From: Oscillospiraceae bacterium
Lineage (GTDB): Bacteria > Bacillota > Clostridia > Oscillospirales > Oscillospiraceae
Length of the DNA stretch: 54,151 nt
Direction: 5' to 3'
Assembly: GCA_022779345.1 (NCBI GenBank)
Contig: JALFTG010000023.1
Location: 1 to 54,151, forward strand
Shown piece after piece: positions 14,925-19,571 of the stretch (position 1 is its first letter; every line of letters starts with the position of its first letter). The translations under genes were made by a program, and so were the position numbers. The notes beneath the pieces were generated by a model, which made no database searches, was not told the origin of the DNA, and was given only the letters and a program-made list of their open reading frames with translations.

Positions 14925-15638
14925 TCAGCTCAAATCAACCGTCCGGATGATCCTGGCAAGAGGCAGTTTTTTCAGATTGGTCGCCTTTTCGTGGGAAAGC
15001 GTGGTTTTCCCCCAGTGGGAGGGGTAAATCTGATAGTCTCTTTCCAAGGCCCGCAGTGCCGTCAGAGACTTGAGCAGAGCAGCGGAACTGCTTACGGACA
15101 GGTCACAGGTTCCCACTGCCTGGTGGGCGATCAGATCGCCGGTGAACAGGCTGCTCCCCACCTCATAATATACGGAGCCTGGCGTGACGCCAGGGGCAGA
15201 ATGGACCTGAATCTCCAGGCCGTTCAGGCGCAACTGTGCGCCGTCCTCAACCGGATGAATGACTCCGGTATATTGTTCCGGGAGACGGAGATTGATCAGG
15301 CGGACTGTCTCTTCCCACAGGGCGGGGAGCAGCTCCCGGTCCACAGGATGAAGATACGCCCTGGCCCCAGTCGCACGCACGGTCTCCCCAAGGAAGAAAG
15401 TGTGCTCTGTCAGGGCGCTGGTGAGCAGGATATCGGTCAGGACCAGATGCTCCCGCTCCAGGACGGCCAGGATCTGTTCCGCAGGGGCGCCGGCGTTGAT
15501 CAGCACGGCTCTCCCCTCTGCCGCCACCAGGTAAGAGACCGTGGGCGGCAGGACAGCGTACAGTTCGTGGGTCAGCTCTTCCAGTTTTGTTCTGTCATAT
15601 TCGTAATCCCGGTAGCCGGGCAGTTCGATGATCTTCAT
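14925..15638 (-). CDS. Metallo-beta-lactamase-fold protein with degenerate metal site
   Basis: Co-linear with upstream MBL paralog, but LLTSALTEH replaces LITHAHCEH and APGVTPGS replaces PGHSSGS; TGD and PSHW retained. Confidence 0.85.
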   Translation of the reverse strand: MKIIELPGYRDYEYDRTKLEELTHELYAVLPPTVSYLVAAEGRAVLINAGAPAEQILAVLEREHLVLTDILLTSALTEHTFFLGETVRATGARAYLHPVDRELLPALWEETVRLINLRLPEQYTGVIHPVEDGAQLRLNGLEIQVHSAPGVTPGSVYYEVGSSLFTGDLIAHQAVGTCDLSVSSSAALLKSLTALRALERDYQIYPSHWGKTTLSHEKATNLKKLPLARIIRTVDLS

Positions 15639-16336
15639 TCTGTTTCCCCCAAAACAATTGTTCCAGACAGGCGCACCACCGGAAGCTCCGCCAGATTGCC
15701 CTCCTGTTCTTCCCGCAGCTCTGTTTCCGTCCAGTGGGCCGGATAGACATGGCAGTCCGCTTTGATGCGCAGGATCTTCTGCACAGATTCCCGCATATCC
15801 TCCCGGCTGCCGCCGGGCATGTTATGGTGTCCGATGGCGTTGTGGGACAGCACATCGCCGGAGATCAGCGCGTTTCCGGCCTGATACATCACCGAGCCGC
15901 TGGAGTGCCCCGGCACATGGATGACCCGTATTTCCACCTCATCCAGATGGATGATATCCCCATCTTCAATGGAGGTCACCGGTCCGGTGTAGGGTTCATA
16001 GCCCTGAATGTTCATGTAATCGATGTAAAGGGCCTGGGTGTCCGTGAGCAGGCCGGCTTCACTGGCATGCATATAGACCTCTGCGCCGGTCCGATCCACC
16101 ATCTCTTTCAGCTTGTAGATATGTTCGCAATGGGCATGTGTGATCAGGATCTTGGTCAATGTCAGACCCTTGCTCTCCAAAAACGCCAGGATCTTATCCA
16201 CTTCCCCCGGTGCATCGCTGATGGCGGCATGGCCGCTTTCTGAGGCGATCACATAGCAGTTGGTGGGATCAAAGTAGAAGAGCGGTTCCGTGAAACCGTA
16301 GTCCTCCCCCAGATCCCGCAGGCTGTATACTTCCAT
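15635..16336 (-). CDS. MBL-fold metallo-hydrolase
   Basis: ILITHAHCEHIYKL...VIHVPGHSSGSVMY...ISGDVLSHN...VYPAHWTE. Confidence 0.9.
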   Translation of the reverse strand: MEVYSLRDLGEDYGFTEPLFYFDPTNCYVIASESGHAAISDAPGEVDKILAFLESKGLTLTKILITHAHCEHIYKLKEMVDRTGAEVYMHASEAGLLTDTQALYIDYMNIQGYEPYTGPVTSIEDGDIIHLDEVEIRVIHVPGHSSGSVMYQAGNALISGDVLSHNAIGHHNMPGGSREDMRESVQKILRIKADCHVYPAHWTETELREEQEGNLAELPVVRLSGTIVLGETE

Positions 16337-16348
16337 AAAGGTCTCCTT

Positions 16349-17116
16349 TCAAATGTCCTGGGCATATGTGAGGAAAGCGTTTTCCGGCAGGATCCTGCGC
16401 AGGAATTGTTTGGTCCGCTCTTCCTTTGGATGACTGAAGATATCATCCGGTTTCCCTTCCTCCACGATCACGCCGCCATCCATAAACACCACATGATTTG
16501 CCACATCCCGGGCAAAAGACATCTCATGGGTGACGATTATCATGGTCACATTCCGTTCGGCCACTTTCTTGATGATGTTCAGGGTCTCCTGGATCAGCTC
16601 CGGGTCCAGTGCGGAGGTTGGCTCATCCATCAGGACCACATCCGGGTCCAGAACCACTGCCCGGGCGATGCCCACCCGCTGCTGCTGGCCGCCGGAGAGC
16701 TGACTGGGATAATAGTCGTAGTAATCGGAGAGTCCCACATAGTCCAGTGCTTCCTTCGCCTTGGCCTCCGCTTCGCTTTTCGGCACATTCCGGGCGGTGA
16801 TCAGCCCCTCCATCACATTCTGCAGGGCAGTCATGTTTTTGAACAGGCCGTAATTCTGGAACACAAAAGAGGTGCGCATACGGATCTCGTGGATCTCCTT
16901 TTTCCTGGCTTTTTTACAATCTACGGCCAGGTCTTTCATGATGATCTCCCCTGCATCCGCCTTTTCCAGGAAGTTGATGCACCGGAGAAAGGTCGTCTTT
17001 CCGGAACCGCTGGGTCCCAGAATCACTACTACATCCCCGGTCTCCACCCGCAGGGAGACATCTTTCAGCACCTGATGATTCCCAAAGGATTTTTTGATAT
17101 GTTTGATCTCGATCAT
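16349..17116 (-). CDS. Amino acid ABC transporter ATP-binding protein (GlnQ-like)
   Basis: [51 protein letters not shown]...[34 protein letters not shown]. Confidence 0.96.
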
Positions 17117-17832
17117 ACTGTTTTCCTCCCCGCGGTACGCTTTTCCACCCGAAAAATCTTTTCCAGTACAATGCCCAGCTGTTCGGCCACGAAGAAAATT
17201 ACATAGTAAATGACCGCAGCGGCGACATAGGCTTCAAAATATCCGTAAGTGAGATGCGCCGGCTCCAGGGCGCCGTTCCAGATGTCCACAACACCGATCA
17301 GGAACAGCAGAGCCGATGTTTTCAGAAGAATGATAAAATTGTTCACCAGAACCGGTACCGCCGCCGGGATCATCTGGGGCAGGATCACCCGCCGGAACAG
17401 CGGCCAGGGGGACAGGCCGATAGAATAACCCGCCTCATACTGGTCCCGGGTGACAGACAACAACGCCCCTCTTACCGACTCCGTGATGATGGGCAGAGCA
17501 AAGACGAACATACTGAAAATGCCCACATACATGATGTCGATATCCCGGATGGTAAACCCGAAATCGTGGGCCGCAATGAACCCTGCGAACACAGTGGAAT
17601 ACAGCAGGCGGATCACGATGAACAGCAGGGTCGGGGGAATTCCCCGCAAAACAGTGAACACAGCGGAGACAACTTTGCTGACCGCCGGGACCTCCCCATT
17701 GAGGAGCAGGGCAAACAGGGTCCCGAAGATCAGGCCCAGGAGCAGCGTGATCAGCACCGCGTACATGGTGTCCGGGACTCTGAGGGCGCCGGCCCGCAGA
17801 CAGTCCAGAAAATCCTGAAACCGAAAGACCAT
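17113..17832 (-). CDS. Amino acid ABC transporter permease
   Basis: [16 protein letters not shown]...[43 protein letters not shown]. Confidence 0.93.
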
Positions 17833-18525
17833 TTATACCCTCCTCTCCGTGTTCAGCCGTTTGTCCAGACAGCGGGAGGACAGTTCCAGCACCACACAGA
17901 TGGCCACGAACAGCACCATTACCACGCAGTACGCCTCCAGGCTGTGACCGGATTTGGAGCCGTATTTCCGGGCCGCCATCATCATGTCCGTGACGCCGAA
18001 CATATACGCCAGGGCCGTACTCTGGAGCAGCGAGATGAACTGCACCACCAGAGACGGCAGCGCCACCCGGAATGCCTGGGGAAATACGACCCGCCGGAAG
18101 GCCTGCATCCATGTGAGACCGATGGAAAAGCCGGCCTCCAGTTGGACAACGGACACCGACGCCAGGGCACTGCGGAAGATCTCCGCGAAAAAGGCGGCGT
18201 TGTTCAGTCCAATGGCCAGAATCACATAGAGCATTTTGCTCCACCGGTTGATGTCCACACCGAACAGCAGGTCCATAAAAAACGGCAGCCCATAATAGAC
18301 CAGATAGATCTGCACGATCATGGGGGTCCCCCGCATGAAAGAGTTGAATACAGCCACGATCTGTGCAGATACCGGAATCTTTCGGATGCGGATGACGGCC
18401 AGCAGGATCCCGGCCGCAAGAGCAATCAGGAACGAGAAGATCACGATCTCAAATGTAGCCCCCGCTCCGGACAGCACAGTGTCAATGGAATCCACCAGCC
18501 GGGTGAAAGTGAAATAGTCTCCCAT
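17833..18525 (-). CDS. Amino acid ABC transporter permease
   Basis: FNSFMRGTPMIVQIYLVYYGLPFF...LEAGFSIGLTWMQAFRRVVFPQAFRVALPSLVVQFISLLQSTAL. Confidence 0.94.
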   Translation of the reverse strand: MGDYFTFTRLVDSIDTVLSGAGATFEIVIFSFLIALAAGILLAVIRIRKIPVSAQIVAVFNSFMRGTPMIVQIYLVYYGLPFFMDLLFGVDINRWSKMLYVILAIGLNNAAFFAEIFRSALASVSVVQLEAGFSIGLTWMQAFRRVVFPQAFRVALPSLVVQFISLLQSTALAYMFGVTDMMMAARKYGSKSGHSLEAYCVVMVLFVAICVVLELSSRCLDKRLNTERRV

Positions 18526-18599: not shown

Positions 18600-19290
18600 T
18601 CAGTCGGCGTCGGTGATGCCTTCGCTCAAATCATAACCGATAAACTGCGTGGACAGCTTGGAGATAGTGCCGTCCGCACGAAGCTGGGACAGTGCACCGT
18701 TCACAGCGTCCAGCAGATCCGTCTCCTGCAGGTTGATGGGGGCGTCGGGATGGGCCTCGTTGTAGGCAGTCAGTGCATAATAGGCAGAGTTGCCATCGGG
18801 CACACGGACGGTCAGGCCTACCAGGTCATCGATGGTTTCGATGCTCTCAGCCACGGCGGTATTGGCGCTGTCCACCACGATGATCTGTTCGCTCTTCTGA
18901 TAGGCGTAGGTGAAATTGAACCGGTCAATGCGCTCGTCATTGGCCTGCCACTGGCAGGCACTGATATCCGCCTTGCCGTTTTCCCCAGCGATCAGCATAT
19001 CGCTGAAGTCTGAGAACTCAAAGGTAAAGGTATATTCCGGGAGCAGTTCATCAATTGCTTTCAGCAGTTCGATCTCAAAGCCGGTGAGTTCTCCGCTCTC
19101 ATCCTCAAACTGCCAGCCGGGGATCATGCCAATGACTGTTACAATGACTTCCCGGGGCTCAACGGTCTGCTGGGTCTCTTCTCCGTCATCCGTCTCCGCC
19201 GGTTCCTGTGTTTTCTGACTGCCGCAGCCCGCCAGGCTGTACAGGAGCAGCAGAGCAAACAAGTGCGATCAGCTTCGTATATCGTTTCAT
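18600..19290 (-). CDS. Amino acid ABC transporter substrate-binding lipoprotein, apparent single-base frameshift in signal peptide
   Basis: FALLLLYSLAGCGSQKTQEPAETDDGEE...FEIELLKAIDELLPEYTFTFEF; ATG with RBS at 19290 encodes MKRYTKLIA in another frame; the in-frame TTG at 19262 has no RBS. Confidence 0.85.
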
Positions 19291-19319
19291 TTCATAAACC
19301 TCTTTCTAATCAAATTGGG

Positions 19320-19355
19320 TGGTAAAAAAATAAAAAACGGGAGCAAATACTCCCG
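19320..19355 (-). terminator. Intrinsic terminator inside the ABC operon leader
   Basis: Minus CGGGAG-TATTTG-CTCCCG-TTTTTTATTTTTTT, about 30 nt before the first gene. Confidence 0.9.
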
Positions 19356-19536
19356 GACAGCGGATCGACAAGCCTGTGCTGTTCACACACGGGACAGACA
19401 AAGGCATACCATGCCTCACAGTCGGTCGCAAAGTCCGGGAGGACAGCATTCGGCCACAGCGGAAATTATGTCTCAACATGCTGAGAGAGAAATAATACAT
19501 CCGCTTCGTTTCCTTTCCTACTTTTTTAGTTGGTTT
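19338..19536 (-). promoter_or_regulatory. Riboswitch/attenuator-like leader of the ABC/MBL operon
   Basis: CTCCCGGAC (19433-19441) is complementary to GTCCGGGAG (19350-19358), which also forms the terminator; upstream long stem-loop AGCGGA...TCCGCT (19458-19505) and AGGCAT-GGT-ATGCCT hairpin. Confidence 0.7.
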
Positions 19537-19542
19537 GTAGGA

Positions 19543-19571
19543 ATTATAGCCGCATCCAATGTTTCGGTCAA
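19543..19571 (-). promoter_or_regulatory. Sigma-A-type promoter for the ABC/MBL operon
   Basis: TTGACC-N17-TATAAT. Confidence 0.85.

Follow-up and report, generated by a model that had tools for sequence, protein, structure and literature searches.

A conserved leader peptide with an invariant CGA codon as a candidate ribosome-position switch upstream of sulfur amino-acid genes of Clostridia

The 54,151-nt window analysed here, a contig of an Oscillospiraceae bacterium (JALFTG010000023.1), carries on its minus strand a leader of roughly 200 nt in front of an operon for an ABC transporter and two MBL-fold hydrolases, and the question arises what this leader senses and by which mechanism. A sequence-only reading described it as a riboswitch- or attenuator-like element, the ligand of which may match the substrate of the importer. 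The promoter, the AGGCAT/ATGCCT hairpin and the terminator on which that reading was based are all present (Table 1), the terminator being composed of CGGGAG (19355-19350), a TATTTG loop and the CTCCCG-T6 segment. What was overlooked is the translation of the leader: between promoter and terminator, as expected of an attenuator, a short open reading frame (19500-19306) begins, which is preceded by a Shine-Dalgarno (SD)-like sequence, which reads MYYFSLSMLRHNFRCGRMLSSR... from its ATG and includes arm A in the same frame. The leader as a whole folds better than 199 of 200 shuffled sequences (z -3.0), and its inner hairpin occupies the position of a GGGCGC..GCGCCC hairpin in relatives.

Table 1. 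Features of the leader and of the operon behind it in the window
Feature	Positions	Strand	Remarks
Sigma-70-type promoter TTGACC-N17-TATAAT	19543..19571	minus	-35 TTGACC 19571-19566, TATAAT 19548-19543; sequence
SD-like AGGAAAGGA of leader ORF	19511..19519	minus	10 nt ahead of ATG; sequence
18-codon conserved leader-peptide core MYYFSLSMLRHNFRCGRM	19447..19500	minus	NFRCGRM codons 19467-19447; CGA 19452-19450; ATG 19449-19447
Full open frame from ATG 19500	19306..19500	minus	stop TAG 19308-19306, past terminator
Arm A CTCCCGGAC, antiterminator 5' strand	19433..19441	minus	within ORF, 5 nt past ATG18; covariation
Inner hairpin AGGCAT-ggt-ATGCCT	19402..19416	minus	AGGCAT 19416-19411, ATGCCT 19407-19402; sequence
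Arm B GTCCGGGAG	19350..19358	minus	partner A (antiterminator) or C (terminator); covariation
Arm C CTCCCG + T6, intrinsic terminator 3' half	19332..19343	minus	CTCCCG 19343-19338, T6 19337-19332
Gene 1, SBP_bac_3 substrate-binding protein (SBP)	18600..19262	minus	best NCBIfam cystine SBP, below cut-off
Gene 2, permease	17833..18525	minus	best NCBIfam cystine ABC permease
Gene 3, second permease (BPD_transp_1)	17113..17832	minus	
Gene 4, ATPase	16349..17116	minus	best NCBIfam cystine TcyN
MBL-fold hydrolase 1	15635..16336	minus	glyoxalase II / persulfide-dioxygenase-like
MBL-fold hydrolase 2	14925..15638	minus	

All three transporter proteins that were scored have a cystine NCBIfam model as their best match, in each case below the equivalog cut-off. 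No homologues of the operon were found in 121 genomes of the leader family at a cut-off of E 1e-25, which is so strict that this result carries little weight, and the window's own assembly contains no clear MetY, weak and partial PF01053 matches being all that was detected. The SBP gene has an SD-preceded ATG at 19291 that does not share the frame of its long ORF 19262-18600, which begins at TTG 19262; the frame is broken by a single base in the signal-peptide region (19262-19291, minus strand). In addition, the leader ORF has no stop ahead of the terminator, the sole such case among 53 terminator-type leaders, 52 of which stop earlier. Given these two irregularities, the window copy may be imperfect, the locus being either in the course of drifting or assembled with small errors. 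Elsewhere in the window, an azaaromatic (yjdF) riboswitch (RF01764, 86.8 bits) is located at 2580-2680 on the minus strand.

A DNA search of 60 relatives returned one short similarity, which fell within another short ORF, MTSSLEKALRTNFRCGRMLYSR, situated upstream of genes for a sulfonate-type binding protein and a CysK-like protein. Pattern-based scanning of 297 genomes of the order and of the GTDB collection, combined with two profile searches, yielded at least 165 unique leaders, nearly all from Clostridia, the comparison of which defines a peptide family with the core M-x3-F-x2-L-L-R-x-N-F-R-[FNCY]-G-R-M. The pattern used for the GTDB scan fixed Cys15 and CGA; statements about CGA and position 15 are drawn from the 297-genome pattern scan and from the profile and protein-level searches. 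Order-wide, 54 of the 297 sampled genomes had a match at E <=0.01 in the profile search, a handful of these being weak. The start codon lies exactly 11 codons ahead of Asn12 in 83 of 100 unique leaders and three codons further upstream in another 15, mostly from one closely related group, and an SD-like sequence is found at the corresponding place in nearly all of the family. The peptide matches no known leader-peptide or small-protein family in Pfam or NCBIfam, and the window's own assembly gave no further leader of the family in the profile searches. One leader (L048) has undergone a 42-nt tandem duplication, as a result of which NFRCGRMCCSCSNS is present twice.

The downstream gene was identified for 153 of these leaders and proved to be metY in 117 cases, metN in 11, metQ/nlpA in 10, a sulfonate-type SBP gene in five, an M20 peptidase gene in three and SBP_bac_3 in two (the window and L078); single cases include PF03601, a UroD-like protein, a nitrogenase-like reductase and ABC permeases. 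The leader in front of the reductase gene (L143) perhaps relates to organosulfur use. By this comparison the family is associated with sulfur amino-acid genes, which, together with the cystine-like importer of the window, is in keeping with the suggestion that the signal matches the imported substrate, although the signal itself is still a candidate.

If the leader RNA were a ligand-binding aptamer, the other half of the sequence-only reading, its overall structure, the terminator and the alternative pairing would be accounted for. At gathering as well as permissive thresholds, however, no Rfam family matches the window leader, which thus does lie outside the known classes, and in 22 related loci the leader matches none either, the hits being confined to unrelated elements elsewhere in the loci. 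What is conserved in the family is the translated peptide and the pairing arms: upstream of arm A the region is kept as codons rather than as structure. The 5' stem-loop at 19505-19458, which is formed by GCGG..CCGC, ATTAT/ATAAT and TCTC/GAGA pairs and covers the leader start codon, does exist in the window (z -3.5), yet it is restricted to this copy, the family mean being z +0.1. Hence an aptamer riboswitch appears extremely improbable.

At the nucleotide level, Arg17 is encoded by CGA in 76 of 76 leaders obtained by protein-level searches, which are blind to the codon, and in 116 of 116 leaders of a wider set; CGA makes up about 5% of the arginine codons in the studied loci (the background being estimated from the window together with the family loci). 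All six arginine codons are used at R10 and R14 of the same 76 leaders and four codons at G16, and the codons of R14, R10, G16, N12 and F13 vary freely while the peptide is conserved, i.e., the amino-acid sequence near the putative stall site is preserved beyond the nucleotide sequence, as expected of an acting nascent chain. Met18 is likewise shared, the lone exception being L258 with Thr (ACG), which keeps CGA and precedes an NlpA-type lipoprotein gene. M18 is followed by a UGN codon in 61 of 76 leaders (TGA 24, TGC 23, TGT 12, TGG 2), and an immediate stop at this place is TGA in 24 of 25 instances.

An invariant CGA might report sulfur supply by way of s2C32 on tRNA-Arg(ICG), a thiolation which prevents CGA reading (PMC5372741). 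Such a sensor would be consistent with the presence of tRNA-Arg ACG with C32, with the absence of a TCG tRNA among 30 genes typed and with the TtcA-like gene that adjoins the leader in L049. Its sign, however, would oppose a hold that turns expression on, and a TtcA-like gene is missing in 8 of 30 leader-bearing genomes, compared with 2 of 35 without the leader; because of these eight genomes thiolation of the CGA-reading tRNA was rejected as a general explanation, and a role as the sensor seems most improbable. In both L002 and L049 the TtcA-like gene lies directly upstream of a leader preceding a sulfonate-type SBP gene, and in L002 a cysteine-desulfurase-like frame is found before it.

As regards the RNA, a hairpin followed by a T-run occurs in 55 of 100 homologous leaders, as opposed to 3% of shuffled sequences. 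The proposal that the upstream CTCCCGGAC excludes the terminator by pairing with the complementary GTCCGGGAG (19358-19350) was borne out by strong covariation in homologous leaders, so that the attenuator part of the earlier interpretation, which a lack of conservation of this pairing was to refute, is supported. With arm B located from the terminator alone, A:B duplexes of 26 non-redundant leaders are more stable in their own combination than when crossed (-22.5 vs -17.1 kcal/mol; 0 of 10,000 permutations). In an alignment of 41 sequences the A:B helix is 92.4% paired, with double changes at 7 of 11 pairs, and sliding it by 1-3 columns reduces pairing to 25-52%. For the inner stem and for B:C, 0 of 5000 permutations were as good in each case. 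Sequence comparison thus shows that antiterminator and terminator exclude each other, one of the arms lying in or beside the ORF. A hairpin A:A', considered as a third alternative, covaries weakly (163 of 5000 permutations) and was discarded.

The RNA in front of the ribosome was folded at equilibrium, on the assumption of a footprint of about 15 nt, and by this calculation the structure that can form depends on where the ribosome stands. In 26 leaders the terminator has a probability of about 0.2 when codon 15 occupies the A site; the value reaches 0.38 for CGA17, 0.77 for M18 and 0.89 for codon 19, with a steep rise from 0.2-0.3 to 0.8-0.9 while the edge of the ribosome crosses codons 17-18. 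For the window, the probability is 0.03 for codon 15 and 0.98 once codon 19 has been reached. This rise places the calculated switch point at codons 17-18, where it coincides with the conserved CGA-ATG.

Besides the terminator/antiterminator switch of the window type, the family has, by sequence comparison, a second output, namely occlusion of the SD sequence of the next gene by bases just past codon 18. Among 60 non-redundant leaders in which the spacer is short, the 26-nt segment that follows codon 18 pairs more stably with the SD/start region of its own downstream gene than with those of other leaders (-9.1 vs -6.9; 0 of 10,000 permutations), a preference that is slight or absent in control windows taken upstream. 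Examples of the occluding pairs are TGATCCTCA/TGAGGATCA in L164 and TGTACCTC/GAGGTA in L084. In this type, opening of the SD grows gradually as the ribosome advances over the anti-SD strand.

The leader is probably an attenuator that responds to ribosome position and depends on a conserved leader peptide resembling arrest peptides. While translating M-x3-F-x2-LLR-x-NFRxGRM, the ribosome would be held by the peptide itself at or just before R17(CGA)-M18(ATG), with its front edge short of arm A. Arm A, being free, would pair with B, the terminator B:C would be blocked and the cystine-type importer operon would be transcribed; once past M18, the ribosome would cover A, B:C would pair and transcription would stop. 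In relatives that lack a terminator, this step would instead bring the anti-SD strand under the ribosome, and since this strand begins just past codon 18, a held ribosome should correspond to the ON state in the SD type as well. A hold near R17-M18 would then favour expression in both types, given that in the terminator type the footprint is nearer to 12 than to 15 nt: a footprint of 15 nt implies 77% termination already when M18 occupies the A site, so that ON at this exact step depends on the shorter estimate. The hold would report shortage of sulfur amino acids, the signal most likely being either Met-tRNA at codon 18, to which Cys codons placed according to class would add a second input, or a precursor, e.g., O-acetylhomoserine, that builds up in sulfur shortage.

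Classical cysteine-codon attenuation would ascribe the same switch to a wait at Cys15 (Cys19-22 in the SD type) under shortage of Cys-tRNA, the remaining residues of the peptide being incidental. The terminator probability is indeed lowest with Cys15 in the A site, and the window operon is cystine-like. Moreover, Cys15 is commoner in terminator-type leaders (3 of 4 vs 7 of 72 others, p 0.006, numbers being small), codon 19 is a Cys codon in 35 of 76 leaders, mostly of the SD type, and CCSCS or CRC runs are present in some; in either type, albeit in small numbers, Cys codons tend to lie at places at which a held ribosome would switch expression on. However, 26 of the 76 leaders, including the terminator-type L221 with Phe15, have no Cys codon at all, so that plain attenuation at Cys codons is not general, and the conserved NFRxGR and the invariant CGA would be left unexplained. 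For this reason an arrest-prone peptide with its decision point at CGA-Met is favoured even though the Cys codons tend to sit at ON-giving holds, and the cysteine-codon explanation seems unlikely.

One version of the favoured arrest-peptide explanation invokes a metabolite: a molecule of sulfur shortage, such as O-acetylhomoserine or O-acetylserine, would bind the ribosome-peptide complex and hold it at R17-M18, just as tryptophan acts on TnaC as an arrest-inducing small molecule. The fixed length of the peptide, the conservation of side chains up to the peptidyl-transferase centre and the free synonymous change would all fit, and O-acetylhomoserine is the substrate of MetY, the dominant target. 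The other targets, i.e., importers, have no single common substrate, however, and the ligand is hypothetical; this version is regarded as possible, if rather doubtful.

Like the TnaC, SpeFL and Erm leaders, the family combines a short ORF, residues conserved to the peptidyl-transferase centre and a ribosome position that sets termination or SD exposure, and it shares with TnaC the frequent UGA after the last conserved codon. It differs from them in having no sequence relation, in its location on sulfur genes, in the invariant CGA and in its transcriptional as well as translational outputs; stalling is here a prediction. As in trp/his-type attenuation, the 5' arm resides in the leader ORF and antiterminator and terminator exclude each other, but there is no run of regulatory codons, the peptide itself is conserved and many members are not transcriptional. 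Predicted leader peptides on cysteine- or sulfur-related genes have been described before, namely uORFC-8-2 upstream of cysS in Rhodobacterales, which rests on tandem Cys codons (PMC8632094), and leaders in Actinobacteria (PMC1262725). Unlike uORFC-8-2, the present family belongs to another phylum, and in it Cys is dispensable while Arg-CGA is invariant. The S-box (SAM) and T-box elements of Firmicutes sulfur genes act on the same kind of target (met, cys), but these work as RNA aptamers or as sensors of tRNA and are represented by models in Rfam, none of which matched the window leader or the leaders of the 22 related loci. In the SecM-type arrest motif R-x-G, Arg-x-Gly is followed by a special A-site codon. 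The family shows a similar succession, with Arg(CGA) as the A-site residue instead of the Pro of SecM, a resemblance that may serve as a lead and not as a sign of homology.

In the open-access journal literature no paper was found with NFRCGR, NFRFGR, FRFGRM or NFRNGR as a peptide, and topic searches there returned other systems only. Leader-peptide attenuation is a known kind of regulation, most known cases of leader-peptide control coming from Proteobacteria and Actinobacteria; the present family appears to be new, as do the invariant codon and the two outputs that belong to it. The chances seem evenly balanced that LLRxNFRxGRM represents a widespread new class of arrest peptides, which senses sulfur amino-acid status, needs an inosine-decoded CGA at the stall site and has been wired to termination or to SD occlusion in different Clostridia.

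In many Clostridia of the gut (Faecalibacterium, Gemmiger and relatives of Oscillibacter), one uncatalogued peptide fronts the principal genes for sulfur amino acids, where aptamer riboswitches would be expected. A single invariant codon amid freely drifting ones is unusual, and makes the I34-A decoding of CGA directly testable as an arrest trigger. The family would offer a handle on the regulation of methionine and cysteine supply in these organisms.
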